Origin: a virus
Strand: one strand, 5' to 3'
Virus record (IMG/VR): IMGVR_UViG_3300017764_002897
Coordinates: 1 to 40,388 of that record
DNA: 40,388 bases
A program made the position numbers and the translations under genes. Numbering within the stretch: the stretch's first letter is position 1; every line of letters begins with the position of its first letter. A model generated the notes under the pieces. That model was not told the DNA's origin. It saw only the letters and a program-made list of their open reading frames with translations, and did not search any database. Positions 3,527 to 40,388 of this stretch are shown one piece after another.

Positions 3527-3541
3527 GAAGTTGGATTTAAA

Positions 3542-4885: not shown

Positions 4886-4886
4886 C

Positions 4887-7410: not shown

Positions 7411-7804
7411 ATTAACATTTATAAAAAATGCTCCAAAGTATCATGAGTTTATAAGGAACCTTAGAAACGATAAAAGAGTTCAAGATGGTTTATTGGAAAA
7501 AAATGTAAATATAACCAAAGACCAGCAGCAAAAATATATGGAAAAATATGAAAGTAATTTTTATATTTGTCTAGAGTCTGAAAGCCCAATAGGATATATA
7601 AGGCATATAAATGAAGATATAGCGGTTTGCGTACATCCCGATCATTGGGGAAAAGGAGCGGGAACTTTTATGGTGAAAGAATTAATCAAAAAACATCCTA
7701 ACTCTGTAGCCAGAATAAAATTAGATAATCAGGCAAGCTTGAGAGCTTTCGAAAAAGCTGGATTCAAAAAATGGGGATATGTACTAATACCTGAGAATGA
7801 GTAA
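7397..7804 (+). CDS. GNAT-family N-acetyltransferase
   Basis: 135 residues with a clear GNAT core: IGYIRH strand, AVCVHPDHWGKGAGTFMVKELI (acetyl-CoA loop of the Q/RxxGxG/A type, here WGKGAG) and the closing LDNQASLRAFEKAGFKKWGY. These small GNATs often acetylate or acylate the amino group of dTDP-amino sugars made by a neighbouring DegT aminotransferase, which is exactly the next gene. The substrate is inferred. It overlaps both neighbours by 8-14 bases. Confidence 0.82.
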   Translation: MKTNKLTFIKNAPKYHEFIRNLRNDKRVQDGLLEKNVNITKDQQQKYMEKYESNFYICLESESPIGYIRHINEDIAVCVHPDHWGKGAGTFMVKELIKKHPNSVARIKLDNQASLRAFEKAGFKKWGYVLIPENE

Positions 7805-8411
7805 TCCATTTCAATCCGTAAAAGAATTAGAAAGCGCTATCTCAGAATATGCTGGAAGCAAATATGCTGTTGCTGTTGATAGTTGCACTAACGCTTTATT
7901 CCTTGCTTTAAAATATTGCAAAGCAGAAGGGCAAGCCGTTTCTATACCAAAAAGAACTTACGTTTCTGTCCCGTGTTCGATAATCCATTCTGGAGCAAAA
8001 GTAAAATTCGAAGACTTCGATTGGCAAGGACACTACCAGTTAAAGCCATTTCCTATTTACGATGCCGCAAAAAGATTCACCAAAGGAATGTACGTCAAAG
8101 ATTCTTTTTACTGTCTTTCTTTTCATGCAAAAAAGAAATTAGCCATAGGTAGGGGTGGAATGATTTTAACAGATAATGAAGACGCATATAAATGGTTTAA
8201 ATTAGCTAGGTTTGATGGCCGTAATGAGGTAGATTTAAATAATGACTCATTTGAGATGTTGGGATGGAATTTTTACATGACCCCAGAGCAAGCTTCTAGA
8301 GGTCTTTGGCTTTTTCACTCTTTAAAGAATTTAAATAATGGAGTTCATCCGGACCTAGAAGAGAATCCCCCTTATCCAGATTTATCAAAATTTAAAATAT
8401 ACACAAAGTAA
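7797..8411 (+). CDS. Shortened DegT/DnrJ/EryC1/StrS aminotransferase
   Basis: PLP-dependent sugar aminotransferase. It begins FQSVKELESAISEYAGSKYAVAVDSCTNALFLAL, the usual N-terminal pattern, and has DAAKRF and the PLP-lysine segment SFHAKKKLAIGRGG, where the second Lys of HAKK aligns with the catalytic Lys of SFHATK. MLGWNFYMTPEQASRGL corresponds to the family's GxNxRMxxxxAAxGL stretch. At 204 residues it is little more than half the usual 360-380; the small C-terminal domain is nearly absent. The frame ends cleanly and the next gene starts nine bases later, so this may be a compact natural form. With RmlB it would give a dTDP-3- or 4-amino sugar. Confidence 0.82.
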   Translation: MSNPFQSVKELESAISEYAGSKYAVAVDSCTNALFLALKYCKAEGQAVSIPKRTYVSVPCSIIHSGAKVKFEDFDWQGHYQLKPFPIYDAAKRFTKGMYVKDSFYCLSFHAKKKLAIGRGGMILTDNEDAYKWFKLARFDGRNEVDLNNDSFEMLGWNFYMTPEQASRGLWLFHSLKNLNNGVHPDLEENPPYPDLSKFKIYTK

Positions 8412-8419
8412 AACAAGAT

Positions 8420-9355
8420 ATGAATTTATTAGTAACAGGAGGATGTGGGTTTATAGGTTCTAATTTCATAGAACACGTTATAAATAAAAAAGAGATCAAC
8501 AAATTGGTTAACGTAGATTGTATGTCTTACGCAGCTAACCTAGACAACACAAATTCTTTTTACAAAGACCCAAAGTATATTTTAGAAGAATATAATTTAT
8601 CAAATTATGATAAAACATATGACACTTTCTATAAGCATGACATTACTCACGTTGTTCATTTTGCAGCTGAGTCTCATGTTGATAATTCCATTAAAGGATC
8701 AAAAGAGTTTATTGATTCCAATATTGTCGGTACTCACGCATTATTAGAAGCGGCAAATAAATTCAAAGTAAGGTTTCATCACGTTTCTACGGATGAAGTT
8801 TATGGGGTTGCGAAAGACGGAGAAAAGTTCACTGAGCAGACCCCTTATGACCCCAGAAATCCATATTCAGCCACGAAAGCCGCCTCGGATTTTTTAGTAA
8901 AATCCTATGTTAATACTCACGGTTTAAAAGCTACAATATCTAACTGCTGTAATAACTATGGACCCAATCAACATGGAGAAAAATTTATACCAGTAATTAT
9001 TGACTCGCTGTTAAACGATATAAAAATTCCTGTCTATGGTAAAGGTGATCAAATTAGAGATTGGATATACGTAGAAGACCATTGCTCTGGAGTATGGAAA
9101 GTTCTTAGGAAGGGTAAAATAGGGGAAACTTATTTAATTGGTTCAGATTGCGAAAAAACTAATTTGGAAATAATTATGACCATTTGTAAAATATTAAATA
9201 AGAAGCCAGAGGATTATATTTCATATGTTAAAGACCGCCCCGGTCATGATTTTAGGTACGCAATAGATAGCTCAAAAATAAGGAAAGAACTAGGATGGAA
9301 ATCGAAAATAAATCTAGAAAAGGGCTTGAAAAAGACCATTAAGTATTATGCATGA
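8420..9355 (+). CDS. rmlB: dTDP-glucose 4,6-dehydratase (RmlB)
   Basis: Converts dTDP-glucose to dTDP-4-keto-6-deoxyglucose. The 311 residues carry the NAD loop TGGCGFIGSN, VVHFAAESHVDNSI, the catalytic TDEVYG and YSATKAASDFLV, NNYGPNQHGEKFIP, and the late motif VKDRPGHDFRYAID. All are canonical. It is slightly shorter than bacterial RmlB (about 355). It supplies the intermediate for both the epimerase/reductase at 2657 and the aminotransferase just upstream. Its last codons overlap the next start. Confidence 0.95.
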   Translation: MNLLVTGGCGFIGSNFIEHVINKKEINKLVNVDCMSYAANLDNTNSFYKDPKYILEEYNLSNYDKTYDTFYKHDITHVVHFAAESHVDNSIKGSKEFIDSNIVGTHALLEAANKFKVRFHHVSTDEVYGVAKDGEKFTEQTPYDPRNPYSATKAASDFLVKSYVNTHGLKATISNCCNNYGPNQHGEKFIPVIIDSLLNDIKIPVYGKGDQIRDWIYVEDHCSGVWKVLRKGKIGETYLIGSDCEKTNLEIIMTICKILNKKPEDYISYVKDRPGHDFRYAIDSSKIRKELGWKSKINLEKGLKKTIKYYA

Positions 9356-10298
9356 TACTTTCATAGAGGGCGTAAAGCTGCACATCGATTCCATTGAAGG
9401 TCAAAATGAAGAAATCAATATATCTGGGTGGTGCGCTTCTAGTTCCGTTAAAATAGAAGGCATAAGGCTTTCTAAAGGTAAAGAGTCTTTTTCCTCCGTG
9501 TTTGGCGGAGAAAGGAAAGACGTAGGCGAATTTTATAAGAATAAAAACTTTTTAAATTCTGGATTTAATATATCTATACCTAAGAAATTTGAAAACACAA
9601 AAGGTGTGGAATTGCAAATATTTAATGAAAAGAAATGGAAAACCGTACTAGAATTAAACAGAAAAGAATTAACTGTTCCTAAAATTGATTTTAAAATTTC
9701 AAGCAAATTAACTGCCGATTTCTTAGTTATAGATGATTTTTACGAAAACCCCGACGAAGTAAGAGACTTCGCTCTATCAAACGATTTTGCCCCTCACTTA
9801 CAATATCACAAGGGGCAGAGAACTGAGGAGAAGCTTATTCCCAGTGGAATGAAAGAAAAATTCGAGAGCCTCTTGCATACTGAGATAACTAGCTGGGAAG
9901 ATCAAGGGGCTAATGGGGTTTTTCAGTTTTGCACAGCGGAAGATCAATTAGTGTACCATGTAGATAATCAGAGTTATGCGGCAGTCGTTTATCTTACGCC
10001 AAATGCCCCGCCTTCCTGCGGCACAACCTTTTTCAAAAGTCGAAGAACCGGATTAAGGGCTTCACCTAGCCGACAAGACTGTGAAAGGTTAAACAAAAGC
10101 GAGCAAGATTTATCTTTCGAAATTTTTCAAAACAATTTTTACGATAAAACAGATTTAGAAATCGTAGACGTAGTAGGAAACGTTTACAATAGATTAGTAA
10201 TATGGAATGCAAAGTTAATTCACGCAGCCTCAGAGTACTTTGGAGATAAAAAAGAAAACTCTAGGCTGTTTCACATGTTTTTCTTTGATATAAAATGA
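9348..10298 (+). CDS. 2OG-Fe(II) oxygenase-like (DUF6445-type) with N-terminal beta domain
   Basis: 316 residues, two parts. Residues about 1-105 form a beta-rich domain with SGWC...IRLSKG and SVFGGERKDVGEF, like accessory domains attached to glycan enzymes. The rest follows the pattern of a 2OG-Fe(II) oxygenase-like family: FLVIDDFYENPDEVRDFAL, the metal site HVDN, YLTPNAPPSCGTTFF, a second histidine in KLIHAASEYFG, and RLFHMFFF carrying the 2OG-binding arginine. It may hydroxylate a sugar or protein residue; the substrate is unknown. It is translationally coupled on both sides. Confidence 0.75.
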   Translation: MHDTFIEGVKLHIDSIEGQNEEINISGWCASSSVKIEGIRLSKGKESFSSVFGGERKDVGEFYKNKNFLNSGFNISIPKKFENTKGVELQIFNEKKWKTVLELNRKELTVPKIDFKISSKLTADFLVIDDFYENPDEVRDFALSNDFAPHLQYHKGQRTEEKLIPSGMKEKFESLLHTEITSWEDQGANGVFQFCTAEDQLVYHVDNQSYAAVVYLTPNAPPSCGTTFFKSRRTGLRASPSRQDCERLNKSEQDLSFEIFQNNFYDKTDLEIVDVVGNVYNRLVIWNAKLIHAASEYFGDKKENSRLFHMFFFDIK

Positions 10299-10945
10299 AA
10301 ATAACAGTTCTACAACCTAACCTCTTCCCCTTTAAAGCTTACTTTGACCTGATAAAGAAAGTCGATAAAGTTGTCTTTTTTGACGACAGTTTTTACAATT
10401 CAAAAACTTGGGTAAATAAAACGGTAATAAAAAAGAACGACAGAAGGTTCGTGTTCAATATAAATGTGATCGATGATGGGGAAGAGACCAAGCTTTGTGA
10501 TGTAAAAATAAACTGCAAGAATTGGAAAAGAAATTTTTTAAGAATTATTTCATCACAGTACAAAACTGCAAGAAACTTTCCAATAGTATTCCCTCTAATA
10601 AAAGAAATAATTAATTTACCAGTAGAAAACATATGTCAAATATCTGCTTATAGCATATTCAGAATAAGCCAAGAATTTTATGATTATAAAGGAGAATTTA
10701 TTTTATCTTCAAAAAAATATAAAAAGATTAAAAGTGGCTCTTTTAGGAATAAAATTATTGATATATGTAAATACGAAAGAGCTGATCACTTCTATACGTT
10801 TTCGATGTATAGAGAGACTTTTGATTCCCACTACTTTACTAAAAATAATATATCTATAAGCTATTTCGAGTCGCCAAATAAGGCCGCTTACTCATGTATA
10901 GACTTTTTAATGAACGATTTGGACTTAATTAAAAAAATAGTGTAA
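10295..10945 (+). CDS. WbqC-like family protein
   Basis: 216 residues beginning ITVLQPNLFPFKAYFDLI, followed by VVFFDDSFYNSKTWVNK. The family hallmark is QPNFFPWxGYF then FxDDVQYxxxxWxNR. WbqC-like proteins occur in O-antigen and amino-sugar gene clusters; a role in acylating or forming N-substituted sugars has been suggested, but the reaction is not settled. It closes the cassette. Its final codons (GTG TAA) are part of the promoter-like sequence before phoH. Confidence 0.85.
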   Translation: MKITVLQPNLFPFKAYFDLIKKVDKVVFFDDSFYNSKTWVNKTVIKKNDRRFVFNINVIDDGEETKLCDVKINCKNWKRNFLRIISSQYKTARNFPIVFPLIKEIINLPVENICQISAYSIFRISQEFYDYKGEFILSSKKYKKIKSGSFRNKIIDICKYERADHFYTFSMYRETFDSHYFTKNNISISYFESPNKAAYSCIDFLMNDLDLIKKIV

Positions 10946-12138: not shown

Positions 12139-12513
12139 ATGAAGATTTTTTGTTATAATTGTGGGTCAAAGATTGAATTTTCAGCTACAAACAAGCCTAA
12201 GTTTTGTATGAGTTGTGGTGCTTCCCTTGACCCCAATAGCAATACTAAAGCTAATACGTCATCAGAACCGCAGGAAGACCTAGAAAGTGAGCAGGGAAAT
12301 TTTTCCGCTGATATAAGTAAATTAGATTTTGATTTCATTCCAGATGAATCACATAGAGTTAAACTCGGAGAAGCTTTGGGGAGTAATTCCGGAGGGAGAG
12401 TCGATGAAAACCCCCTGCAACCAAGATCAATTTCCGAAGAAGAGTTTAACAAGCAGTGGGCAAAAGAGTCTGGAACTTTGAGGGGAAGTCCTCCTCAAGA
12501 AAGTAATGAATAA
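12139..12513 (+). CDS. Zinc-ribbon protein
   Basis: 124 residues. The N-terminus has a two-knuckle zinc ribbon: FCYNCGSKIEF then KFCMSCGASL (CxxC spaced 15 residues from CxxC). The remainder is low-complexity, acidic and Ser/Asn/Pro-rich with no fold I recognise. It overlaps the sigma-like gene by eight bases, so the two are co-translated and may act together in transcription; that link is inference. A CATAAT sequence 15 bases before the ATG could be a -10 element. Confidence 0.75.
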   Translation: MKIFCYNCGSKIEFSATNKPKFCMSCGASLDPNSNTKANTSSEPQEDLESEQGNFSADISKLDFDFIPDESHRVKLGEALGSNSGGRVDENPLQPRSISEEEFNKQWAKESGTLRGSPPQESNE

Positions 12514-13210
12514 AAAGAAAGGCTCTTACAAAAAAAAGCCTACATTTGAAGAATCTTTCGATTTTATAAATCAAGAAATTAGGAAAAGAACAAATAAGTG
12601 GAACCTCTCTTCCTTAAACTGGATGGATTTCGATGATGTATCTCAAATTATAAGGCTACATATATATGAGAAATGGCATCTATATGATGTCAACAAACCT
12701 CTTGGGCCTTGGCTAAATAGGATAATATCGAATCAAATAAAAAATTTAATCAGAAACTATTATGGCAACTTTACTAGACCATGTTTAAAGTGTGAGGCTC
12801 AAGAAGGCGAGATTGGATGTAAGATATATATAGAACAATGTTCTCAATGCCCATTATACGGTAAATGGGCAAAGGGGAAAAAATCTGCCTACGATATAAA
12901 AATACCCTTATCTTTAGAGGATCACTCTTTCGAAGTTAATTCAATTAGGTTAAGCGATGGTGCATCTTTGGAAGATAATATAAAAAAACTTAATGTAAAA
13001 TTAAAAGAAATCTTGAGACCTAATGAATGGATAGTATATGAAACCATTTATATAAAAAATTTAAGCGAAGAGGAAGCGGCTTCCGAATTGGGTTTAAAAT
13101 CTAACGAAAAAAACAGAAAACCCGGATACAAACAAATACAAAACATTAAGAAGAGCATAATTAAAAAGGTAAAAGAAAATATGGAAAAAGGTGAAATTGA
13201 AATATTATAA
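12506..13210 (+). CDS. Sigma-70-like factor with cysteine cluster
   Basis: 234 residues. Residues 38-84 resemble sigma region 2: MDFDDVSQIIRLHIYEKWHLYD, then PLGPWLNRIISNQIKNLIRN. Residues 165-225 resemble region 4 (LRPNEWIVYETIYIKNLSEEEAASELGL, then a basic recognition-like helix). Between them sits an unusual cluster Cys93, 96, 105, 112, 115 (CLKC...C...CSQC) that could bind zinc. Its size and place before the structural genes suggest a phage late sigma factor comparable in role to T4 gp55. It could direct the AGTGTAAT-type promoters, but that is speculation. Confidence 0.7.
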   Translation: MNKKKGSYKKKPTFEESFDFINQEIRKRTNKWNLSSLNWMDFDDVSQIIRLHIYEKWHLYDVNKPLGPWLNRIISNQIKNLIRNYYGNFTRPCLKCEAQEGEIGCKIYIEQCSQCPLYGKWAKGKKSAYDIKIPLSLEDHSFEVNSIRLSDGASLEDNIKKLNVKLKEILRPNEWIVYETIYIKNLSEEEAASELGLKSNEKNRKPGYKQIQNIKKSIIKKVKENMEKGEIEIL

Positions 13211-13217
13211 TAGATAA

Positions 13218-13841
13218 ATGAAAATAATAGATGACATAGAAGATGGGTTATTTCTAGCTCAATCAAAAATACCGGGAGCGGGAGTAGGGCTTTTCACTTC
13301 AAAACATATATTAACTGGCGTCCCTGTGTGTGAGTATAAAGGAGATGTTTTTACTTCGTCTCAAGAGCTGTTTTCCACTAAAAGATATGATTATACTTTA
13401 AGGCAAAATTTGGGGTCGAGAATGCCCATGTATACACTTGGACATAACTCAGGTAAACTTATCGATTGTCAACCTTGGGCAACTAAAAATATAATAGGCT
13501 TAGGGGGCTTTGCCAATGACGCTTTAGGCTTTCAGCTAAGAATGAATCCTAATTATTCGGAAAAAAGAAAAGATATGCTTGGCTATACCGAAGAGAGACA
13601 AGTTGCAACCCAAGAAGAAAAGGAGTTGAAAGATAAGTGGGAAATTGAGATGGGCTACAATACATTCTACTGGTCTATACCCAATGAAGATAAATTTTAT
13701 TTAATGTCTATAAGAAATATAAATCCCGGAGAGGAGATATTCGTAAATTACGGAGAACAATACTGGACAAAGTATATAGACGCTTTGACTAAAAATCCAA
13801 ATCACTTTAAGGAAGCTTCACAAGAAAATGAAAATAGTTGA
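13218..13841 (+). CDS. SET-domain protein, copy 1
   Basis: 207 residues. SET motifs in order: GAGVGLFTSKHI (20-31), VCEYKGDV, LIDC (81-84), GGFANDA (96-102, the N-H/D substrate and cofactor motif) and the C-terminal IRNINPGEEIFVNYGEQYW. SET enzymes transfer methyl from S-adenosylmethionine to protein lysine, and viral examples are known. The 60-residue insert between GGFANDA and the last motif is the expected SET-I region. It is followed by a paralogue overlapping by 14 bases. The target is unknown. Confidence 0.85.
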   Translation: MKIIDDIEDGLFLAQSKIPGAGVGLFTSKHILTGVPVCEYKGDVFTSSQELFSTKRYDYTLRQNLGSRMPMYTLGHNSGKLIDCQPWATKNIIGLGGFANDALGFQLRMNPNYSEKRKDMLGYTEERQVATQEEKELKDKWEIEMGYNTFYWSIPNEDKFYLMSIRNINPGEEIFVNYGEQYWTKYIDALTKNPNHFKEASQENENS

Positions 13842-14475
13842 TAACATATCCAACAGAATCTTTATTGGAGCTTCGCTCTTGAAGGGCGCTGGTTGTGGAC
13901 TTTTCGCTGGTGGAGAAATTATAAAAGGCGTTCCCGTGTGCGAATACAAAGGTGAAGTTTTTGAAAATGTTGATAGCTTGATCGAAACGGGAAGGTATAA
14001 TTATACACTCAATATGGAATTGGGAAGACCTCACGCTATTTATACTTACCACCATCCAGATTTAGATAAAGTCATAGACTGTCATCCCGGAATCTGCAAA
14101 GAAGAAATGGGTTTAGGAGCATATATAAATGATAGGCTTCACTGGGCAGACAGAACTCGTCCAGAATACATTAAAAGTCGAGACGAAATGTTGGAGCAAA
14201 TGCAAAATAAAAAAAATCCTCAAAACTTTCAGGAAGTCGAAATAGTAAATAATTGGAGAAATTCAATTGGGTGGAACTTAATTTTTTGGCCTGTCCCACA
14301 TTTGCACAAAGCTCTTCTTATTTCGACTAGAAATATAAAACCGGGAGAAGAACTTTTTGTAGATTATGGTGATGATTACTGGGAGCCGTTTGCTCAAGCG
14401 GCAATAAAGAAGCAGGAGCTAGAAGAGAAAGAGCAGGATATTCCCGTTTTGAAGCCGGAAGATTTTAAAACTTGA
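13828..14475 (+). CDS. SET-domain protein, copy 2
   Basis: 215 residues, clearly paralogous to the previous gene: both begin MKI(I/V)D(D/N)I and share GVPVCEYKG(D/E)V, G(R/K)(Y)(N/D)YTL and RNI(N/K)PGEE(I/L)FV(N/D)YG. Motifs: GAGCGLFAGGEI (20-31), VIDC (82-85), GAYINDR (97-103) and the final FVDYGDDYW. Outside the motifs the two have diverged, so the duplication is not recent and each copy probably has its own substrate. The C-terminus carries a charged tail (EEKEQDIPVLKPEDFKT) absent from copy 1. Confidence 0.85.
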   Translation: MKIVDNISNRIFIGASLLKGAGCGLFAGGEIIKGVPVCEYKGEVFENVDSLIETGRYNYTLNMELGRPHAIYTYHHPDLDKVIDCHPGICKEEMGLGAYINDRLHWADRTRPEYIKSRDEMLEQMQNKKNPQNFQEVEIVNNWRNSIGWNLIFWPVPHLHKALLISTRNIKPGEELFVDYGDDYWEPFAQAAIKKQELEEKEQDIPVLKPEDFKT

Positions 14476-14476
14476 T

Positions 14477-15562
14477 ATGGCTGAAGACACATTAAAAGAA
14501 TCTCAGAAAGAGTTAATAATAAATGAGTGGAATTCTAGACCGGATAATCCACCCTCCTTATTAGAACTTATAAATGTAGCTTTTCCAGATAAAGGTTTAG
14601 ATGGGAGAACAAAAGAGGGCCGAGCGGTCAAATCTTTCTTAGCTTCAAGAGACATTAAAGCTCGCGCTTCTCACGAATACCAATCAAAAAAACAAATAAG
14701 TCTTTCTGAAGAGGATAGGTTATTTATTCAGAATAATCTCGAATTCATGAGTAGCGTCGAAATGGGGAGAATGATTTTTAAAGATAATTCCCTTAGCAAC
14801 CTAAACCAAGAGGCAAGGATTATAGCTAACTACGTTAAAGAATTGAGTTCATCTGAAGAGACGATACCATTCGAACCCACGGAAGAGATTCCTGCGGAGT
14901 CATATAAACCACCAAGAACTTTTGATAAAACGATGTACAGGGTTAACAAGTATATACCCGATGCAATCAATAAAGAAAAAATAACAAGTAAAGATAAAAA
15001 AAATGTTAAAGCTTTAATAGGTTACTTAAGTGCTTACAGGTTTTCCTATCAAATGAACACCTATACCAATAATACAGATAGAGAACTATATGAATCTAGC
15101 TTTATTAGGTATACATACAATAAAGACGACCTTACTCAAGAGGAAGTTGATCAATATATAGTTTTATCTTCAGAAGTAGTTATAGCCGCAAATATACAAA
15201 GAAGAAAAGAACACTTAACGAGATTACTAGACGCCCTTGTTGAAGACTCAGACGGGAGAGCGTCAATGTCTTTGGTTGAAGCGATAGGTAAAACCGAAAC
15301 AGAGTATAATCAATCTGTTAATAGGCAGCAAAAATTACTTGGTGACCTCAAAGAGAAAAGAAGCGATAGGCTAAAGAATCAAATAAAGGAAAACGCTAGT
15401 ATATTGAATTTGGTTAGCCTCTGGAAAGAGGAGGAGAGTAGGAAAAACCTCTTACACCTAGCGGAAATGAGAAAGAAAACCGTGGATAATGAGGTTCAAA
15501 AATTATCTGACATGGATGAAGTAAAAGCTAGAATTCTTGGCCTTGGGGAAGATGAAATATGA
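14477..15562 (+). CDS. Hypothetical protein, possible small terminase
   Basis: 361 residues. The first 70 (NEWNSRPDNPPSLLELINVAF, GRTKEGRAVKSFLASR) look like helix-turn-helix units; the middle is mixed; residues 240-361 are long charged helices (coiled-coil-like, LLGDLKEKRSDRLKNQ...). It lies two genes before the large terminase, in the position of a DNA-recognising small terminase, and an N-terminal HTH plus C-terminal oligomerisation helices would suit that. No direct motif proves it. It overlaps the nuclease gene by four bases (ATGA). Confidence 0.5.
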   Translation: MAEDTLKESQKELIINEWNSRPDNPPSLLELINVAFPDKGLDGRTKEGRAVKSFLASRDIKARASHEYQSKKQISLSEEDRLFIQNNLEFMSSVEMGRMIFKDNSLSNLNQEARIIANYVKELSSSEETIPFEPTEEIPAESYKPPRTFDKTMYRVNKYIPDAINKEKITSKDKKNVKALIGYLSAYRFSYQMNTYTNNTDRELYESSFIRYTYNKDDLTQEEVDQYIVLSSEVVIAANIQRRKEHLTRLLDALVEDSDGRASMSLVEAIGKTETEYNQSVNRQQKLLGDLKEKRSDRLKNQIKENASILNLVSLWKEEESRKNLLHLAEMRKKTVDNEVQKLSDMDEVKARILGLGEDEI

Positions 15563-16515
15563 GCGATTCAAATAACAAAGTTGTATGTAAAGCTTGCGGT
15601 AAAGAATTCGAAACGGAAAGACAATTACACGCTCACATAAAAGTACATAGTTTGAGAGTAGTAGAATATTATCAAAAATATTACCCTAGGCATGATCTTC
15701 ATGATGGAAAAATTATAAAATATAAAAATAAAGAACAATATTTTTCTACCGATTTTAATTCAAAAACAAATCTTCGTATGTGGCTCAAAAATTCAGAGGA
15801 ATCTGAAGCAAAAAAGTATTGTAAGAATTTACTCGCAGACAGGAAAGATAAAAAGAACCTAAAGTACTCCCCGACTCAGGTAGAAATGAGAACCGTTATG
15901 ACTCCACCCATGCAATACTACGATGAATTATTTAATGGGTATTATTCTTTTTGCGAATCTCTAGGGTTCGAAAATAAGTATCAAAAAGTATCTGAAATAA
16001 CTACCGGGAAAGAATACGAAAAAACTCAGTATTCTATACATGTAGACACTAGAGAGCAGATGCCTTTGAATTTTGATAATTACAAAACAGAAATTAAAAC
16101 CTTATCTGTTGGGGATTATACCTTTAGTGAGCCAAAGTTAACTTGTAATTGTTATATAGAAAGAAAGTCTTTAGCCGATTTTATTTCGACATTAAGTGTT
16201 AAAAATTTTGAAAGATTCGAAAGAGAGATAGAAAGAGCTAGGGATATGAATGCTAATCTAATAATCTTAGTCGAAGACACTTTAACAAACGCGCTTAGTT
16301 TCAAGTACCTTCCTCACATATCTAAAAAAATAAAAGTAACTCCAGAATACATTTTCCATAATGTAAGATACTTGATTCAAAAACACCCCCACATACAATT
16401 TTTATTCGTTAATGGAAGACAAGAGTCGAAGAGGGTAATTCAAAAAATATTTTTTAGTGGTTGCGTATATAAGAAGATTGATCTTCAATACGCCTATGAT
16501 CAGAAGATTTTATAA
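15559..16515 (+). CDS. C2H2 zinc-finger plus ERCC4-type nuclease
   Basis: 318 residues. The N-terminus is a classical C2H2 finger: Cys10, Cys13, His26, His30 (VCKACGKEFETERQLHAHIKVH pattern). Residues 158-260 form an XPF/MUS81-type nuclease: HVDTREQ (161-167), GDYTF (185-189), IERKSLADF (200-208), the GDx(n)ERKxxxD core. Such nucleases cut branched or flap DNA. Lying between the putative small terminase and TerL, it may trim replicative intermediates before packaging or degrade host DNA. The last base is shared with the terminase gene. Confidence 0.85.
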   Translation: MSDSNNKVVCKACGKEFETERQLHAHIKVHSLRVVEYYQKYYPRHDLHDGKIIKYKNKEQYFSTDFNSKTNLRMWLKNSEESEAKKYCKNLLADRKDKKNLKYSPTQVEMRTVMTPPMQYYDELFNGYYSFCESLGFENKYQKVSEITTGKEYEKTQYSIHVDTREQMPLNFDNYKTEIKTLSVGDYTFSEPKLTCNCYIERKSLADFISTLSVKNFERFEREIERARDMNANLIILVEDTLTNALSFKYLPHISKKIKVTPEYIFHNVRYLIQKHPHIQFLFVNGRQESKRVIQKIFFSGCVYKKIDLQYAYDQKIL

Positions 16516-20354: not shown

Positions 20355-21512
20355 ATGAGTGAAGAAAATAACGATGACCAAATAAAAGCGATTTACGGAG
20401 AGGCTGACATTTCTATGCCTGATTTAATGATGCCCGAAGCATCTGAAGATATAGAGCAGATAGAAAATGAAATGAAAGCCGTTGAAGACAGGTTTAAAGC
20501 TTCTTTCGATTTTTGTTTCATCGGTGCTGGCCAAGGTGGAAGCAGGGTTGCTGAAGCTTTCAGTCGCCTTGGGTACGGTAGAGTTGCTGCGGTAAATACC
20601 GCCGAGCAAGACTTAAACACTCTAAAGATAGAAAACAAACTATGTATAGGTGACGGAGGAGCAGGTAAAGAGCCTGAGTTAGCTAGGAAAGCTATCGAAG
20701 ATAAGAAAGAAGACGTGCTAGACTTCATGAGATATTCATTCGGCCAAAAATTCGATAGAATATTCGTATGCGCTGGAGCTGGAGGAGGCTCTGGGTCAGG
20801 TATGGTAGTTCCTTTGGTAAATATAGCTAAAGAAGTTCAAGAACTACATAAAACAACTGATAAACAAGTTGGAGTAATTTTAACTTTACCAAAAAAATCT
20901 GAAGGCAAGAAAGTTAGTCAAAATGCATATAACGTAGTCAAAAGCGTTTACTCTCTAGTAAGACAAAATATTGTTTCACCTTTGATAATTTTAGATAACG
21001 AAAAAGTAGCTCAAATGTATCCAAACGTAGCTGTGTCGAAATTTTTCGATGTAGCTAATTCCAGTTTAACTGGATTATTTCACTTGTTCAATTTAACTTC
21101 CGCCAAAGATAGTAGTTATTCTTCTTTCGATAAGAATGATTACAGGGGGATTTTAAACTCTGGAATGATGTTGTTTGGGGCATCTCCAGTTAAAAACTTT
21201 AAAGACCCAGTGGAAATATCAAGGGTAGTAAGGCAGAATCTTAAAGGAAACCTCTTATGTGGTGGAATAGATGTAACCACAGGTAATACCGCTGGGGTAA
21301 TAGTTGTAGGTGGACCCGAAATACTAGACAGTCTACCTCAAAGTTTCATAGATGAAGCGTTAGACCAAATAAATAGAATGCTTCAATCCGGTAGCGTTGT
21401 CCATGGCGGTGTTTACAGCGGAGACAAACCCAGCTTAAGCATATTCAGCGCCGTAGGTGGACTAGCTGAACCAAAGAAAAGAATGGAAGAACTTTTGAGA
21501 GATTCAATGTAG
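20355..21512 (+). CDS. FtsZ/tubulin-like GTPase
   Basis: 385 residues. After an acidic 48-residue N-terminus comes FCFIGAGQGGSRVAEAF (GTP-binding first loop), VNTAEQDL, and the tubulin signature GAGGGSGSGM (141-150), equivalent to GGGTGTG. SFDKNDYRGILNSGMMLFGA (257-276) matches the T7 loop/helix that completes the GTPase site of the next subunit. If aligned with FtsZ NVDFAD, the second acidic residue appears replaced, so hydrolysis may be weak. There is no long C-terminal tail. The gene lies inside the head operon, one base after portal, rather than in a replication module. Roles could be DNA or capsid positioning, or a structural GTPase. Confidence 0.85.
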   Translation: MSEENNDDQIKAIYGEADISMPDLMMPEASEDIEQIENEMKAVEDRFKASFDFCFIGAGQGGSRVAEAFSRLGYGRVAAVNTAEQDLNTLKIENKLCIGDGGAGKEPELARKAIEDKKEDVLDFMRYSFGQKFDRIFVCAGAGGGSGSGMVVPLVNIAKEVQELHKTTDKQVGVILTLPKKSEGKKVSQNAYNVVKSVYSLVRQNIVSPLIILDNEKVAQMYPNVAVSKFFDVANSSLTGLFHLFNLTSAKDSSYSSFDKNDYRGILNSGMMLFGASPVKNFKDPVEISRVVRQNLKGNLLCGGIDVTTGNTAGVIVVGGPEILDSLPQSFIDEALDQINRMLQSGSVVHGGVYSGDKPSLSIFSAVGGLAEPKKRMEELLRDSM

Positions 21513-22157: not shown

Positions 22158-22652
22158 ATGAAAAGGGAAGATAGTAAAGATACAACTGAGAAATCACAAA
22201 AAAGTGATTTAGCTTCGGAAGCCGAGATTATTGATTTCTCGGCCAATCTAGTTTCTTGCCTCGAAGAAAAGAAGAAACTCTTCAATAAAGAAAACAAATC
22301 TTCCATTAAAGTAGACCAACTCAAAGAAGTTTATAGAAGGGGTACTGACTCCGAAAGAAATGATTTAAATTTGCATGGTTTAGCTAGAGTAAATATGTTT
22401 TTGAGGCAAGGAGCCTTCAATAGTGAAACTTCAAAAGAAGAATTACCTCAACTCACAGACTCTTTAGTTTTCGAAGAATCAGAAGCTTCGTCTGTTTTAG
22501 AGTTTGATATATCAGAAGATTGGAAACCTTCTGAAGAAGATTACGAATTAGCTAAAGCAGATCAAGAAAAGTTTAATTTAAATTTAAATTTTTCAAGTTT
22601 TGATGAACTATATATAGAAGCTTATAAACCTATAGATTTTGACTGGGAGTAA
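22158..22652 (+). CDS. Acidic hypothetical virion-region protein
   Basis: 164 residues, charged and low in hydrophobics: N-terminus rich in Lys, Glu, Ser, Asp; then NDLNLHGLARVNMFLRQGAF, probably an amphipathic helix; C-terminus acidic and aromatic (SFDELYIEAYKPIDFDWE). No family recognised. It lies between the lipoprotein and a Met-rich repeat protein in the head operon, so it may be an internal or scaffold-associated head protein. A TATAGA sequence 16 bases before the ATG could be a -10 element of a leaderless unit. Confidence 0.7.
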   Translation: MKREDSKDTTEKSQKSDLASEAEIIDFSANLVSCLEEKKKLFNKENKSSIKVDQLKEVYRRGTDSERNDLNLHGLARVNMFLRQGAFNSETSKEELPQLTDSLVFEESEASSVLEFDISEDWKPSEEDYELAKADQEKFNLNLNFSSFDELYIEAYKPIDFDWE

Positions 22653-22656
22653 TATT

Positions 22657-23547
22657 ATGAATGTAGATTTTACAAATGACATTATTAAATTAAAAAGAAG
22701 AGAAGTGGTATATAAACCATTTAGACAACAAAACAGCGAAAGCGTATACATCTTTGAACAAAGGGAAGATAAGATAGTAAAAGTAGCTTTTGATAATGTA
22801 GAATCTATGGCGAATTATTTAAGCCACGTAGGCTATGATTGGGACAAAAATAACTACGATAACGAACAAAGGCTTTTAAAGTTTCTCCCAGAACTAGAGA
22901 GCGCGGAAGTTGTAGCAGCTGACCCGCAGTGGGACGTAGATAACTTGAAGCCTCAAACCCCCAAGGAATCAAGTTTTGAATCTACAAGAAAAATCGAAGA
23001 CATTCCACATCTTGCCGAAGAGCACAGAGAAGTAGATCACCCAATTGGGTTTGACGAAAGAAGTGAATCTTCAGAAGAAAAAAATTACTCTGAGCTTTGG
23101 GCGCAAATAAACTCTCATGAATCAACCGCTATGTCCACACTTATGAAGGGTGACATGGTTAAAAATATTAATCCTGAGTGCAAGCATTATGAAAGTGAAG
23201 GAGAAGTTGTAGATGTGAAAGAGTTGCATTCTGCAATGGACATTAAAGATTACGCTATGATGACTGAAGACGAGGCTATGATGAGAAAAATGTACGCCCT
23301 TATGAAAGAAGATGAAGCCATGATGCGAAGATTGATGGGCATGATGCAAGAAGACGAGGCTATGATGAAAAAATTAAGGGCTATGATGGAGGAAGACGAG
23401 GTTATGATGAAAAAGAATCGTATTGGTTATGCGATTTCCTATAAAACAATCAACGAAGGAATGAATTGGATGAAGGGTGAAGTTTTGGAAAAAACCCCTG
23501 ATCAGTTAGAAAAAATCGAAAGCATGATGCGTCGCCCCATGATGTAA
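22657..23547 (+). CDS. Met/Glu-rich 14-residue repeat protein
   Basis: 296 residues from ATG 22657, which has GGGAG nine bases upstream; an in-frame ATG at 22639 lies inside the previous gene and is less likely. The first 100 residues look globular (VYIFEQREDKIVKVAF, NYLSHVGYDWD). Residues 199-254 are four tandem 14-residue units of the form (Y/R/M)(A/G)(M/L)MxEDE(A/V)MM(R/K)(K/R)x. Each is two heptads, so a continuous amphipathic helix with Met on one face and Glu/Asp/Lys on the other is likely. The end MMRRPMM is again Met-rich. Function unknown; a structural or scaffolding rod within the head is the best guess from context. Confidence 0.75.
   Translation: MNVDFTNDIIKLKRREVVYKPFRQQNSESVYIFEQREDKIVKVAFDNVESMANYLSHVGYDWDKNNYDNEQRLLKFLPELESAEVVAADPQWDVDNLKPQTPKESSFESTRKIEDIPHLAEEHREVDHPIGFDERSESSEEKNYSELWAQINSHESTAMSTLMKGDMVKNINPECKHYESEGEVVDVKELHSAMDIKDYAMMTEDEAMMRKMYALMKEDEAMMRRLMGMMQEDEAMMKKLRAMMEEDEVMMKKNRIGYAISYKTINEGMNWMKGEVLEKTPDQLEKIESMMRRPMM
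23251..23418 (+). repeat. Four tandem 42-bp repeats
   Basis: Four imperfect 42-base units inside the Met-rich gene, each containing a GAAGAYGARGCYATGATG-like core. They are diverged enough to show selection on the protein repeat rather than fresh slippage. Confidence 0.85.
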
Positions 23548-27631: not shown

Positions 27632-29158
27632 ATGAGGCGCGACCATTCGGGAAGACCTAAGTCATCTTATTCAGTAAGTAAAGATAGTACTTACTTGGCT
27701 GCTAATGATGGACTTCTTGTATCTGCCCCTACAACGGGTAATTGTATAATAATATACGATTTGATCGTAACGTCTGGGTCAGGTAAGCTTGGCACTTCTG
27801 CGGATGGTGCTGGAACTCAAATTTGCTTAATAAAACAAGGTCTCAACCAGTTTAGAACCCCAATTAAAGTTCCCGCTGGTCAAGCTTTATATACTGATGC
27901 TCAATCAGGAAATATAACCCTTACCTACAACGTCGTAAAAGAACCTAGTGGGACAACTACTAATGTAAGTTCTGGTGGCGGTGCAACCACCACAACTATT
28001 CAACCCACAACCCTAGCTTTCGCGGCAGCTACTTCTTCGATTGCGGAAGGTAATTCGGGAACATCTGTTCACACCGTAACGGTTAATCGTGCTGGGAATA
28101 CAAGCGGTACGGCTACGATTGATTACGCTACCGCTAATGTAACAGCGACTTCTGGAAGTGATTATACAGCGGCGAGCGGTACTTTGACTTTCGGGGCTGG
28201 AGTGACTTCCCAAAATGTATCCATAACTATTACTGGTGATACTGGGAATGAAGATGGTGAAACTTTTAACATTACTTTATCTAACCCAACACAAACAGTG
28301 GGTTCTGCTTCCATAACTGGCACGAACCCGCATGTAGCTACTATTACGAACGACGATACATCAAATATATCGTTCGCCGCTGGAACCTCTTCGATAGCGG
28401 AGGGAGCCTCACCGGGAACATCCACACATACAGTAACCGTTAATAGGAGCGATACGAATGGTACTGCCACGGTAGACTATGCCACGAGCAACGTTACCGC
28501 AAATGCAGGAACAGATTATACGGCGGCAAGCGGCACTTTGAGTTTCGCTAATGGCGAGAGTTCAAAAAACATATCTGTTACAATCACTGGGGATGGAACT
28601 AATGAAAATAGTGAAACCTTTAACGTAACTTTATCTAATGCAGCTTCTCAATACGGAAGTGTAGCCATAACGGGAACCAACCCGCATGTAGTTACTATTA
28701 CGAACGACGATACATCAAATATATCGTTCGCCGCTGGAACTTCCTCAGTGGCGGAAGGAAATTCTGGTACATCTACTCACGCGATAACGGTCAATAGAAG
28801 CGATACAAATGGTACTGCCACAGTAGACTACGCCACGAGCAATGCTACTGCGACTGCTGGATCAGATTATACAGCGAAAAGCGGTACTTTGAGCTTTGGT
28901 AATGGAGTGGGTTCAATGAATATTTCCATAACCATAACTGGAGACAGTACGGTTGAAAGCAGTGAAACCTTTAACGTGACTTTGTCTAATGCCGCTTCGC
29001 AGTATGGCGCTACAGCAATAACGGGAACTAATCCACACGTAGTAACGATTACTAATGATGATTCAGATGGCGGAACAAGCACGACTACGAGTACCACGTC
29101 AGCGGGAACAACCACGACCACATCAGCGGGAACAACTACGACTACCTCATCACCGTAA
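27632..29158 (+). CDS. Calx-beta repeat virion protein with Thr-rich tail
   Basis: 508 residues. Residues 1-105 repeat the domain found alone at 23563. Residues 128-242, 247-360 and 365-478 are three Calx-beta repeats, each with (I/V)AEGxS, NGTATVDYA, GxDYTAxSGTL, SETFN(V/I)TLSNA and HVVTITNDD. Calx-beta units are extended beta domains often used in adhesion, and usually bind calcium. The last 27 residues are Thr/Ser/Gly/Ala only (TTTSTTSAG repeated), like a mucin-type linker. Likely role: head fibre or surface adhesin. The next gene encodes a glycosyltransferase. Confidence 0.8.
   Translation: MRRDHSGRPKSSYSVSKDSTYLAANDGLLVSAPTTGNCIIIYDLIVTSGSGKLGTSADGAGTQICLIKQGLNQFRTPIKVPAGQALYTDAQSGNITLTYNVVKEPSGTTTNVSSGGGATTTTIQPTTLAFAAATSSIAEGNSGTSVHTVTVNRAGNTSGTATIDYATANVTATSGSDYTAASGTLTFGAGVTSQNVSITITGDTGNEDGETFNITLSNPTQTVGSASITGTNPHVATITNDDTSNISFAAGTSSIAEGASPGTSTHTVTVNRSDTNGTATVDYATSNVTANAGTDYTAASGTLSFANGESSKNISVTITGDGTNENSETFNVTLSNAASQYGSVAITGTNPHVVTITNDDTSNISFAAGTSSVAEGNSGTSTHAITVNRSDTNGTATVDYATSNATATAGSDYTAKSGTLSFGNGVGSMNISITITGDSTVESSETFNVTLSNAASQYGATAITGTNPHVVTITNDDSDGGTSTTTSTTSAGTTTTTSAGTTTTTSSP
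28326..28740 (+). repeat. Near-identical DNA repeat pair inside Calx-beta gene
   Basis: Positions 28326-28386 and 28680-28740 are the same over about 60 bases except for one C/T change, 354 bases apart, at the junction between Calx-beta repeats. Other parts of the repeats have diverged more. The pair could recombine to gain or lose one repeat unit in frame. Confidence 0.85.
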
Positions 29159-35849: not shown

Positions 35850-38800
35850 ATGGCTGATGTAAGACTAACGGTAACGGGTGATACTAAGCTTCTAGAAAGA
35901 GAAATAAAAAAGGCTCTAAAAAGCGGTTATCAACTCGGATCATTAAATACTAGAGGATTTTCTCAACCACTTGGCAAAATAAAAGGCCAGCTGGGTGAGT
36001 TTGAAAAATCTTTGGAAGCTTCTAATGCTCGCGTTATAGCATTCGGCGCGTCAACGGGCGCGATTCTAGCTGTCTCAACAGCTTTAAAAGGAATGGTGAC
36101 TTCAGCTATTCAAGTAGAGAAAGCCTTAACAGATATAAATGTAATTCTCGGAGCTTCTGCGGGTAATCTTGCCAAATTTGGAGACAAACTTTTTTCTATT
36201 GCAAATAACACTGGTCAATCATTTCAAGTAGTTGCAGAAGCGGCTAATGAATTTGCTAGACAGGGTTTAGGAATGGAACAAACCCTAGCTAGAACAAATG
36301 ATGCTTTAATTTTAACACGCATATCAGGAATGAAAGCCGCCGATTCTGTTGCTGCGTTAACTGCGGTAATGAATGGTTTTAACAAGTCGGCTTATCAATC
36401 TTCAGAAATAACAAGCAAACTTGCGGCTGTTGATGCAGCCTTCGCTGTGAGTTCTGCTGACTTGGCAGAGGCTTTAAGACGAGTAGGCAGTACTGCTTCA
36501 ACGGCTGGAGTAAGTTTAGAAGAACTTTTGGGTATAGTTGCGGCAACCCAACAAATCACCGCTCGTGGTGGCGCTGTAATTGGTAACTCATTCAAAACAA
36601 TTTTCACAAGAGTACAAAGACCGAAAGTTATAGAAGCTCTTAAAAAATTAGGAATAGAAACCACTAACGCTCAAGGCAGTCAGTTGGGTTTGATGAAAAT
36701 TTTATCTAACTTAGCTAAAGAATATGATACTCTTGTCCCTAAGCAGCAAGCGCTAGTCGCTGAAATGGTTGGTGGCGTATTCCAAGTTAACGTACTAAAA
36801 GCCGCTTTAGGAGATTTAGGTAAAGAGTATTCTTTGTATGCAAACGCTGTTAAAATAGCCAACAATGCGACAAACGAAGCGGATCAAAGAAATAAACAAC
36901 TCAATCAAACGATAAGCGCACAATTAATTCAAACTTTAAACAACCTTGTTAAAGCTGGCTCTGCCGTAGGTAAATTAACCTTTGGGCCAGCGATAGAAGG
37001 ATCATTAAAAAGCGTAAACACTTTGCTTGGAGGATTAGGGGGAGATGACAGTGAGATGGAAGGTATGGGCCAAAAAATGGCTAAAGGTATTTTAAGTGGT
37101 TTCGGTGCAGTCTTAAAAGGTCCGGGAATTGCCCTACTAACGCTTGGTTTATTTAAAATGTTTGAACGTCTCTCTAAATTTAGTGCAGACGCTTTAGGCT
37201 CTGTATTGGGCTTCAATAGATCAGGAAGAGAAGCGGCAAACATTCAAGCGCAAATAGCTGGACACCTTCAAAAGAATCCACAAATCCTAGCAGCAATAAA
37301 CAGTGGGCTTAAAACGGAAAAAGATTTACACGCTCAAATTCTTGCAAACATAAGAGCAGAGCAACAAGGAATGGTTCAGATAGATAGAATCGCTGGAAGC
37401 ATAGCTGTTAAAATGTCTAAATCAGGATATAAAATTTCTGATAAAGGATCGTTGGTTTCTCCCGGAAGTAAAAGCGCAGGAGGTAAAGGTGGCTACTCAA
37501 AGGGATATGTCCCAACTTTATCAGAAAAAGGCTTTGAAGAATCAAGCGCCAGAAGTCTTGGTGCTGACGCGGGAGTTAAAGCTAGATTTTTACCAAATGT
37601 AAAAGCGGGTGGATCGAAGGGAGTTATAGCAAATAATAAAGAAGACGTTATAACTCCTAAACAATTTGCAAAAGATTATGGCGTAGTACCCAAAGGTGGT
37701 GAATCAGCAATTATACCAAAATACGGTTCCATAGGAAAGAAAAGAAAGGCTGAATTAAAAAGAAATCTATCACGCGCCACAAAAAATTCTTTCTCCGAAG
37801 GAAGCATACCAAATTTCGTAACCATAGAAGACGTAAATAAGTGGAAACAAGCTAACGCGGGTGCGCCTAGAAAATTTGGTAAAAAGAAGGGGGCCAAAAA
37901 AGCTCAAGACACAAGACCTAGTGCCGCAAATATGTTGGATTTTTTAGGGCAGAATGTTAATTCGTTATCTGATGATAAAATGAAACAATATTCAAGCCTA
38001 ATAACAACAGGCGTTATTCGTGGTAACTGGCCAAGGTCTGCCGACAAAGCCCCTACTCCTGCAACTATGAGTAAACTTTATGCAGCTTCAGGTGGACAAA
38101 TAGGGACAAGCGCGGCTGCCGGAAGAAAGAAAGACGAAAGAATAAGAACTCCTCTTGCTAGCGCAAGCGACAAAGGATCACTTCTTCCTGTTCTCGGAAT
38201 GGAACAAGGAACGCTTGCTAAAGTAAATGAAACAACTGCTAAATACGGTCTTTCGCCACAAGAAATGCCCGGATTCCAAAAAAAGTTCGACGGAGTATTT
38301 AAAGCGGAATACGACACGATGGTTGGCAGAGTCGCATCTAAAATGTTTAGTGGTTTAAAAGGTGGTCAAAAAATGTCAAAAGCATTCTCAACTCAAGAGT
38401 TGGGAGCAGACGCTGAAGGCCCAGTTAAAGGCGCAGTTTTCGAAAGCTTTATCAGGGGAATGGTTAAAAAGCAAAAGCAAACATCTGGACAAGCTGTTGA
38501 TATTGAAAAAGGTGGAGTAAAAAAAGAATTTAGACACTTATTCCCTGAACAACTTAGGGATAGACCTTTTGAAGTTAGAGCCGGAGGAATCACTAGATCA
38601 GAAGCGGCAGGTAAAACGCAAAGAAGTGGCGTCTCCATGACTTTAGAGGAAGTCGGTCAATTTGAAGTAGGTGGTCAAGAAATATCTGCACAAGACGCAA
38701 TAACTAGAGCCAAGAGAAAACAGGGTCGTGGATTAAAAGCTCCAAGTTTTGCTGACATAACCAAAGGAAGTTTGACGCGAAATGTCAAGAGAATGGTTTT

Positions 38801-40388
38801 AGATAAAGATTTTTTAAGGCAAAAATATAACTCAATGACTCCGGAAGAAAATGAAGCAGTACTAGCGCAGCAAGGAGTTAAAAACGTAGATCAATTATTT
38901 GATAAAATTGCAGCATCAGCCAAAGGGAAGGGCGTTTCAACCACGTTAATTAATGCAGCACCCGGAGCAGGTAAAACTAGTTTTGCTTTAGGAAACAAGG
39001 GCGCTCAAATCTCTTCCTTAAATGATCTAAATTTTGGAAACAAGCTAGCTGTTGTAACCGCAAGAGCACAAGGGGAAAATTTAGTTGGTAAAGATTTCTT
39101 CAAAGACATGGACAAAGTTGTACATTTGGACGTACCAAAGGAAGAAATACAAAGAAGACGAGCACTTAGGGATCAACAAATTCAATCGGGTAAATCAACT
39201 ACTGGATACGGAAGAAAATCTGGTTCCACTAAATATGCAGATACCGATTTCGAAGCAGCGGAGGCAAGACTAGCGGAAGAGTTCACGGGTCAACCCGGAA
39301 GATTTAAATCTTTGAAAGCTGTGAAGTCTGGAGAAGATTGGAGATTTAGATCAAAGCGAGAGGATGAAATTAAAAAAATTCAAGATATTCCTATGGTAAT
39401 GACTACGGGAGCATTCACTCCCCCTACCTCCGGTCACGGAAGAATCTTTAAAGAAATGCAAAAGGTGGCAGGACAAAGCGGAGCCATGCCTCTAGCAGCT
39501 GTATCTACTGGAACCTCTAGAGAAGGGGACATTGGTCTTTCTAAAGCTGAAAAAAGAAAATTAATAGAAATGCAACATCCGGGCATCTCTACAGTAGGCG
39601 TTCATGGAACTATACCAGAAGTCATTAAAAAAGATGATAAACTTTTGAGAGCCATCCCATCAAAATCAACTGTAATTTTAGGTTCTGACAGAGCAGGAGA
39701 TTCCGTAGGTGAAAGATTTAGAAAGAAAGGTTTTGGTGTTCAAGAAATAAAAAGAGATATGGAAGGTTCAGGCATGAACCAAGAAGCCTTAAGCGCGACA
39801 AAAGTTAGAACAGCTTTGAGTGAGGGTAGAATGCAAGATGTTGCTGGGGCATTAGAACCTAAGATAGCTGATGTTTTAACAAATCCTCAAAACGTAAAAA
39901 GGTTAAAAGACAGAGCTAATGTAATAAAGAAAAGAGATAAAGAATTTGCAGCTTTCAAGAAAAGTTCCCCAGTAGATGCGGAATTAAACAATACATTTGC
40001 AGAACTAACTAGTTTGATGGTTTCCAAAGGATTAAGAAAACCAGCCCAAGGTCAAATAACCAGAATGTATGCTGGCATAACTAAAGCAAGACAAGATCAC
40101 CCAGACATAAATAATGCAGCCTCTCAAGTCTCCGTATTAAGAGACAAGAAAAAACTTCAAGAAAAAGAATTACTATCTAAATACAATACTGAACTTAATA
40201 GAATGCAAATAGAGCAGCAGATTTCTTTTGCAAATGGTTACGTTCCGAATTTTGCTGAAAAACAAAATCAAGCTTTTACCGCCAATAAAGTAATGCTCAA
40301 TAGAGTCATTGATGGAGATAGTTTAAATATAGATTTTTATCCAGCCTCAAAACCCCGCACAGGTTCCTCTAGACTACAAGGCTTTGAC
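35850..40388 (+). CDS. Tape measure protein with enzymatic domains (partial)
   Basis: Open from ATG 35850 to the window edge: at least 1513 residues, no stop. Residues about 1-430 match TP901-type tape measure cores (AIQVEKALTDINVILGASA, FARQGLGMEQTLARTNDALI, ALRRVGSTASTAGVSLEELL, GGAVIGNSFKTIFTRVQRP), then a hydrophobic segment near 410-440. GYVPTL (552), GSIPNFV (651) and GYVPNFA (1463) are repeated linker-like motifs. Residues about 850-920 may be a degraded nuclease-like fold (GAVFESFI, FEVRAGG). Residues about 1020-1170 are a P-loop domain: AAPGAGKT (1036-1043), VHLDVPKEEIQRRR. Residues about 1180-1335 are a nucleotidyltransferase: GAFTPPTSGHG (1187-1197), SATKVR (1315-1320). From 1484, RVIDGDS...SRLQGFD starts a staphylococcal-nuclease-like domain. 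It probably sets tail length and may carry enzymes into the cell. Confidence 0.85.
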   Translation, partial: MADVRLTVTGDTKLLEREIKKALKSGYQLGSLNTRGFSQPLGKIKGQLGEFEKSLEASNARVIAFGASTGAILAVSTALKGMVTSAIQVEKALTDINVILGASAGNLAKFGDKLFSIANNTGQSFQVVAEAANEFARQGLGMEQTLARTNDALILTRISGMKAADSVAALTAVMNGFNKSAYQSSEITSKLAAVDAAFAVSSADLAEALRRVGSTASTAGVSLEELLGIVAATQQITARGGAVIGNSFKTIFTRVQRPKVIEALKKLGIETTNAQGSQLGLMKILSNLAKEYDTLVPKQQALVAEMVGGVFQVNVLKAALGDLGKEYSLYANAVKIANNATNEADQRNKQLNQTISAQLIQTLNNLVKAGSAVGKLTFGPAIEGSLKSVNTLLGGLGGDDSEMEGMGQKMAKGILSGFGAVLKGPGIALLTLGLFKMFERLSKFSADALGSVLGFNRSGREAANIQAQIAGHLQKNPQILAAINSGLKTEKDLHAQILANIRAEQQGMVQIDRIAGSIAVKMSKSGYKISDKGSLVSPGSKSAGGKGGYSKGYVPTLSEKGFEESSARSLGADAGVKARFLPNVKAGGSKGVIANNKEDVITPKQFAKDYGVVPKGGESAIIPKYGSIGKKRKAELKRNLSRATKNSFSEGSIPNFVTIEDVNKWKQANAGAPRKFGKKKGAKKAQDTRPSAANMLDFLGQNVNSLSDDKMKQYSSLITTGVIRGNWPRSADKAPTPATMSKLYAASGGQIGTSAAAGRKKDERIRTPLASASDKGSLLPVLGMEQGTLAKVNETTAKYGLSPQEMPGFQKKFDGVFKAEYDTMVGRVASKMFSGLKGGQKMSKAFSTQELGADAEGPVKGAVFESFIRGMVKKQKQTSGQAVDIEKGGVKKEFRHLFPEQLRDRPFEVRAGGITRSEAAGKTQRSGVSMTLEEVGQFEVGGQEISAQDAITRAKRKQGRGLKAPSFADITKGSLTRNVKRMVLDKDFLRQKYNSMTPEENEAVLAQQGVKNVDQLFDKIAASAKGKGVSTTLINAAPGAGKTSFALGNKGAQISSLNDLNFGNKLAVVTARAQGENLVGKDFFKDMDKVVHLDVPKEEIQRRRALRDQQIQSGKSTTGYGRKSGSTKYADTDFEAAEARLAEEFTGQPGRFKSLKAVKSGEDWRFRSKREDEIKKIQDIPMVMTTGAFTPPTSGHGRIFKEMQKVAGQSGAMPLAAVSTGTSREGDIGLSKAEKRKLIEMQHPGISTVGVHGTIPEVIKKDDKLLRAIPSKSTVILGSDRAGDSVGERFRKKGFGVQEIKRDMEGSGMNQEALSATKVRTALSEGRMQDVAGALEPKIADVLTNPQNVKRLKDRANVIKKRDKEFAAFKKSSPVDAELNNTFAELTSLMVSKGLRKPAQGQITRMYAGITKARQDHPDINNAASQVSVLRDKKKLQEKELLSKYNTELNRMQIEQQISFANGYVPNFAEKQNQAFTANKVMLNRVIDGDSLNIDFYPASKPRTGSSRLQGFD

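Follow-up and report, generated by a model that had tools for sequence, protein, structure and literature searches.

The window analyzed here is the whole 40,388-nucleotide stretch of the IMG/VR virus record IMGVR_UViG_3300017764_002897. It ends within a gene encoding a tape-measure protein that contains, downstream from its conserved core, a P-loop kinase-like domain followed by a nucleotidyltransferase domain of the HIGH superfamily. The surroundings may be a head-tail structural gene cluster, with a terminase gene upstream and genes of late type following one another in order, but most of these neighbors have no family match. The window's tape-measure protein is incomplete, because its open reading frame (ORF) runs past the contig end. 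The features central to the analysis are as follows.

35850 to 40388, plus strand: tape-measure protein ORF, 1513 residues, ATG start, open at the contig end.
36027 to 36989, plus strand: conserved tape-measure core, residues ~60-380, delineated by PF10145, phrog_4211, and IMG/VR relatives.
38772 to 39374, plus strand: P-loop kinase-like domain, with Walker A at 38955-38978, a structure prediction, and a fold match to zeta toxin 6epi.
39390 to 39884, plus strand: HIGH-superfamily nucleotidyltransferase domain, with TxGH at 39426-39437, SATKVR at 39792-39809, a phrog_3041 match, and structure prediction with Foldseek matches.

PF10145 matched the core of the ORF with 109 bits (cut-off, 33.2; E = 3.6e-31) and phrog_4211 matched the same core with an E value of 6.7e-53, the tape-measure family matches spanning residues ~60-375. 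A preliminary description of this DNA had placed a tape-measure core and two sets of enzyme motifs in one unbroken frame. This was borne out, since all of them lie in the single uninterrupted frame 35850-40388 and every position was as reported, with AAPGAGKT at 38955-38978 and VHLDVPKEEIQRRR at 39120-39161 for the P-loop domain, and GAFTPPTSGHG at 39408-39440 and SATKVR at 39792-39809 for the nucleotidyltransferase. The contig ends within this ORF, as might be expected if unrelated genes had been misjoined, but the same fusion was present in the independent contigs L016/L017, L082, and L186 and, within a different tape measure, in L191 (L numbers designate the loci of relatives). Misassembly is thus excluded in practice, and we give it a vanishingly small probability.

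The assignment of the second domain to the HIGH superfamily, also made in the preliminary description, held on each line of evidence. The motifs are intact (TSGH, residues 1193-1196; SATKVR, residues 1315-1320), and the "cytidyltransferase" family phrog_3041 matched residues 1179-1339 with an E value of 1.5e-7 for the unmasked full-length protein and of 2.2e-8 with the module alone as the query. AlphaFold2 (AF2) modeled this half with predicted local distance difference test scores (pLDDT) mostly of 66-89, and Foldseek, proposed in that description together with structure prediction, returned a Rossmann-like fold. FAD synthetase, PPAT, and NMNAT were all matched with a prob of 1.00 (target TM-score [TMt] up to 0.69), and the fold therefore singles out no substrate. 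PF16581 (HIGH_NTase1_ass) scored above its cut-off in relatives L016 and L082. TxGH and SxTxxR were both kept in all of five diverged modules, namely that of the window and four others with 24-35% identity to it (one of them partial), and GxGK[ST] was kept in every one of those modules that includes the P-loop.

The kinase identity of the first domain is clear by motif and conservation and weaker by fold. Alignment of seven kinase modules revealed invariance of [AG]xxxxGK[ST], K1042, D1059, and the LID arginines R1104 and R1107. The kinase half was poorly modeled by AF2 in the 415-residue kinase-nucleotidyltransferase pair, and the kinase was therefore folded with the seven modules, which gave one good model (pLDDT 76; predicted TM-score [pTM] 0.75) and four poor ones. 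The best solved-structure match of this model was zeta toxin 6epi (prob 0.99; E = 2e-3), adenylate kinase 3 being among the further fold matches below it. No Pfam or NCBIfam family model exceeded its cut-off for the window's kinase, so that the P-loop kinase-like domain of the preliminary description stood as far as motifs and conservation are concerned, whereas the fold match was modest and family models did not back it. Zeta toxin or UNAG kinase is the best fold match, yet neither the window module nor that of L035 matched the zeta-toxin family in Pfam at an E value of ≤1. The arginine spacing of zeta toxin also differs from that of the window's kinase. Walker A matches in L070, L062, and L032 were judged on inspection to be fortuitous.

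A tblastn search of IMG/VR with the tape-measure core identified 230 relatives, of which the best 80 were kept (core, 52-63% identical); about 100 related tape-measure proteins have the same core. Relatives were similar to residue ~650 and then dissimilar for 200 to >1000 residues, with similarity resuming near the last pair of a repeated motif in about half of them. Counted along the protein, matching relatives numbered 70+ in the core and ~50 at the closing motif pair, with 0-30 across most of the cargo region. This motif, G-[FYLH]-[VI]-P-N-F-A, recurs in the tape measures of the relatives with the linker consensus [SA]-x-G-[FYL]-[IV]-P-N-[FL]-[AS], in which G, P, N, and F are almost invariant. 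It was counted 327 times in tape-measure frames (199k amino acids) versus 0 times in the other ORFs of the same loci (541k amino acids), four copies first scored outside tape measures having proved to belong to a split tape-measure frame. Single-linkage clustering grouped the segments between motifs into 37 clusters, including a large one (77 segments) rich in PD-(D/E)XK-like domains.

Comparison of relatives revealed what is exchanged. L186 and L063 are 72% identical through L186 residue ~1065 and 64% identical from residue ~1518 on, and L186 carries between these parts a 491-residue kinase-nucleotidyltransferase insert that is absent from L063 and has both ends at a motif. In L035 and L047, the same site, which follows the same GNAT module, is occupied by a module consisting of the kinase only. 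Together, these two observations indicate that the unit of exchange extends from motif to motif. The kinase stands alone, with no nucleotidyltransferase, in L035, L047, L059, and L202, exactly from motif to motif in L035, L047, and L202, the last of which was recovered by the kinase profile although outside its training set. The kinase-nucleotidyltransferase pair was present in four motif-bearing tape measures (those of the window, L016/L017, L082, and L186) and in a fifth, distant tape measure of >5300 residues (L191:5021-20992) that lacks the PNFA motif and has a kit composed of SNase, HELTH, kinase-nucleotidyltransferase, and HAD-like modules. These pairs were found by the core search, a looser DNA pattern, and small alignments; a search for relatives with the window's kinase-nucleotidyltransferase alone and a first GAFTPPT DNA pattern returned none. 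A collection of 50,697 phage records yielded no cultured phage whose tape measure is of this type. Matches in Halobacteriovorax and Neomarinimicrobiota metagenome-assembled genomes have the same architecture and were not used as host evidence, because viral contigs can be misbinned. A literature search covering few subscription papers found no description of the motif or of such enzyme-bearing tape measures.

Within the window, the cargo region contains the following additional features.

37503 to 37523, plus strand: degenerate linker motif GYVPTLS, residue 552, at the position of motif 1 of the relatives (residue ~545).
37800 to 37820, plus strand: linker motif copy GSIPNFV, residue 651, at the position of motif 2 of the relatives (residue ~630).
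38181 to 38516, plus strand: degenerate PD-(D/E)XK-like module, residues ~778-889, matched by phmmer to the PD-(D/E)XK-like module of L003 (E = 6e-5).
38730 to 38753, plus strand: GLKAPSFA, a degenerate motif that opens the kinase module, aligned with G[FIY][IV]PNFA of L016, L082, and L186.
40236 to 40256, plus strand: canonical linker motif GYVPNFA, residue 1463, read from the sequence.
40287 to 40388, plus strand: NRVIDGDSLNIDF...RLQGFD, the putative first part of an SNase-like module truncated by the contig end, read from the sequence and from the arrangement in L051, L054, and L064.

Judging from the alignment, GLKAPSFA probably derives from a linker motif that has decayed. The last 34 residues look like the beginning of an SNase-like module, a piece too short for a family test of its own, and the order of a motif followed by VIDGDS at the contig end is also present in L051, L054, and L064. 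The preliminary description accounted for the kinase and the nucleotidyltransferase and did not extend to the PNFA-type motif, the other cassettes of the relatives, or this SNase-like start.

Other cargo modules of the relatives are firm for GNAT (PF00583, 30 bits; cut-off, 20.7) and for SNase (PF00565, above its cut-off in L191, with two further members). Less firmly, motifs and alignments suggest HAD-like (DWDGTI...TSR...VDDN), HExxH-like (FHEASH and FYHELTH), and PD-(D/E)XK-like (GxxFE...DF...DxK) modules. For residues 1220-1460 of L034, inspection by eye suggested an ADP-ribosyltransferase, but neither Pfam nor the PDB supported this assignment, and it was dropped. As a separate observation, L157, L169, and L098 contain large phage ORFs that by eye begin with a HIGH nucleotidyltransferase followed by GNAT-like repeats, an HExxH-like domain, or an HNH-like end.

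The location of the motif exactly at module borders, with its nearly invariant G, P, N, and F, would also suit a polyprotein processed before assembly, the motif then being a cleavage or assembly signal and the cargo being freed in the producing cell rather than packaged in the virion. Processing would also spare close relatives such as L186 and L063 a difference in tail length that we estimate at tens of nm. However, a motif-linked protease was not found, though not sought in depth, and a late structural gene supplying enzymes to the same dying cell would bring no obvious gain. We regard such processing as unlikely, while giving it more weight than the other alternatives. It is very unlikely that the modules are only structural or decorative, their folds having been recruited as spacers or tail-tip parts devoid of catalysis. 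The PD-(D/E)XK-like module of the window, which has no clear catalytic residues, would fit this role, but the nucleotide-binding motifs of the kinase and the nucleotidyltransferase are invariant at 24-35% identity, and the kinds of modules are those of enzymes, not of tail folds.

The preliminary description had suggested that the pair is related to NadR. The order in NadR is the nucleotidyltransferase (NMNAT) first, followed by ribosylnicotinamide kinase. The cassette shares with NadR a HIGH nucleotidyltransferase and a P-loop kinase and differs by the opposite order of the domains, the lack of a family match, and its location in a tape measure. In this scenario, an injected NadR-like ribosylnicotinamide kinase and nicotinamide mononucleotide (NMN) adenylyltransferase would refill NAD+ against NAD-depleting defenses. 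The composition of NadR (PMC9503650), the presence of NMNAT and NadD among the equal Foldseek matches, and a weak and partial 11-bit NCBIfam match to a NadM-type bifunctional model are in its favor. Nonetheless, no NadR, NadD, or NadM model came near its cut-off in NCBIfam, the kinase lacks a nucleotidyltransferase partner in L035, L047, L059, and L202, and the nearest phage families are generic "cytidyltransferase" PHROGs. The NMNAT/NadR identity was therefore not upheld, given the reversed order and the absence of any passing NCBIfam model, and an injected NAD enzyme appears quite improbable.

The closest cultured-phage sequence relatives of the window's nucleotidyltransferase are cyanophage "cytidyltransferases" (PHROG 3041/395; S-PM2p139 and Syn1_161). 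Unlike the window's domain, these are encoded without a kinase and without a tape measure, by separate genes that lie beside DNA replication genes and adjoin DUF6267, which is fused to the nucleotidyltransferase in S-PM2p139 and L146 (L146:5141-7567). DUF6267 contains the stretches KWDG, GDLMF, PEGYV, and KFV, which read like covalent ligase motifs. HAD-like modules accompany the kinase-nucleotidyltransferase module in L186 and L191. Because the cultured relatives pair with the ligase-like DUF6267, and because of the kinase and HAD-like neighbors, RNA-end repair or modification against an RNase-type defense is our leading guess for the cassette, and a tentative one.

Tape-measure proteins occupy the tail lumen and exit together with the DNA. 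The tape measures described here carry several unrelated enzyme domains in one polypeptide, shuffled between relatives, and in this respect resemble phage polyvalent proteins (Iyer et al. 2017, PMC5512222), which are predicted to be injected and are likewise single virion-linked chains with many exchangeable effector domains. The kinds of domains are partly shared (metallopeptidase, GNAT, and zeta-like kinase). Polyvalent proteins, however, belong to MuF, portal, head, and conjugative contexts. That paper (PMC5512222) contains no mention of tape-measure proteins, and no comparable repeated border motif was seen in it. Sle1-type effectors of actinobacterial contractile systems similarly have a tape-measure-like carrier with a swappable functional domain that differs between species, but belong to a bacterial contractile system and have a coiled-coil carrier with one C-terminal domain instead of a motif-bounded multi-cassette tray (PMC13277306). 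Muralytic tape measures, such as SPbeta YomI, which was matched here, also carry an enzyme domain; theirs acts on the cell wall, whereas the modules of the window's family are cytoplasm-type enzymes.

We consider it fairly probable that these tape-measure proteins are polyvalent (multi-effector) and that their cassettes travel in the tail until they are discharged into the host. The region between the core and the C-terminal part would act as a tray in which enzyme cassettes, each with a motif in front of it, can be exchanged, and the kinase and HIGH nucleotidyltransferase would form one cassette, inserted whole or, in relatives, as the kinase alone. The cassettes would ride in the tail with the tape measure, exit at DNA ejection, and, once folded in the host, act there during the earliest moments of infection, before transcription. 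The cassette of the window may heal or modify RNA ends or a small nucleotide, against an RNase- or nucleotide-based defense. Delivery by the virion is reasonable to propose, since enzyme-type domains are present in a tape measure and their active-site motifs are kept in relatives. The exit of tape measures with the DNA, the polyvalent-like kinds of enzymes, and the Sle1-type precedent make delivery a good inference rather than a result. Several points weigh against this explanation. Folded domains would not fit unchanged in a tail tube, which calls for the assumption that they unfold or lie at one end. For the kinase fold, a single AF2 model out of five was good, and the match was modest. The PD-(D/E)XK-like module of the window looks degenerate, with GAVFE retained and D..DxK not clear in the alignment. 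Finally, apart from GNAT, SNase, and HIGH nucleotidyltransferase, the modules are mostly named from motifs, not from family matches.

Elsewhere in the window, a tubulin/FtsZ-family GTPase (20355-21512; PF00091, 1.2e-13) is encoded between the terminase region and other late genes. Two tandem proteins are encoded at 13218-14475, the first with a SET domain (PF00856, 1.5e-8) and the second similar by eye, which is unusual for a phage. They are preceded by a sigma-70 region 2 protein, possibly a late-gene sigma factor (12506-13210), and followed by an ERCC4-type nuclease with a C2H2-like zinc finger at its N terminus (15559-16515). A sugar-nucleotide/glycan gene cluster, recognized by eye, spans 1441-10945 (nucleotidyltransferase, dehydratase, amidotransferase, and aminotransferase-like). 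Repeats comprise tandem MMxEDEAMM-type units at 23254-23416, within ORF 22639-23547, and two copies of a 351-base repeat at 28311-29052, in ORF 27632-29158, which matches phrog_6040 and is Calx-beta-like by eye.

In its boldest form, which we consider doubtful, the proposal would be that a widespread group of phages uses its tape measures as all-purpose vehicles for injection, in which the PNFA-type motif borders interchangeable effector cassettes and perhaps also serves as a loading, cleavage, or recombination site, and that the enzyme of the present cassette repairs or modifies RNA ends and reaches the host before any phage gene is expressed. Delivery through the tail raises the question of how folded cargo crosses the tail tube. 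A short motif at cassette borders would help to mine early effectors of yet undescribed function. Phage heads are the main setting in which injected multi-effector proteins have been described, and swappable cytoplasmic enzymes on a tail ruler would add a delivery route.
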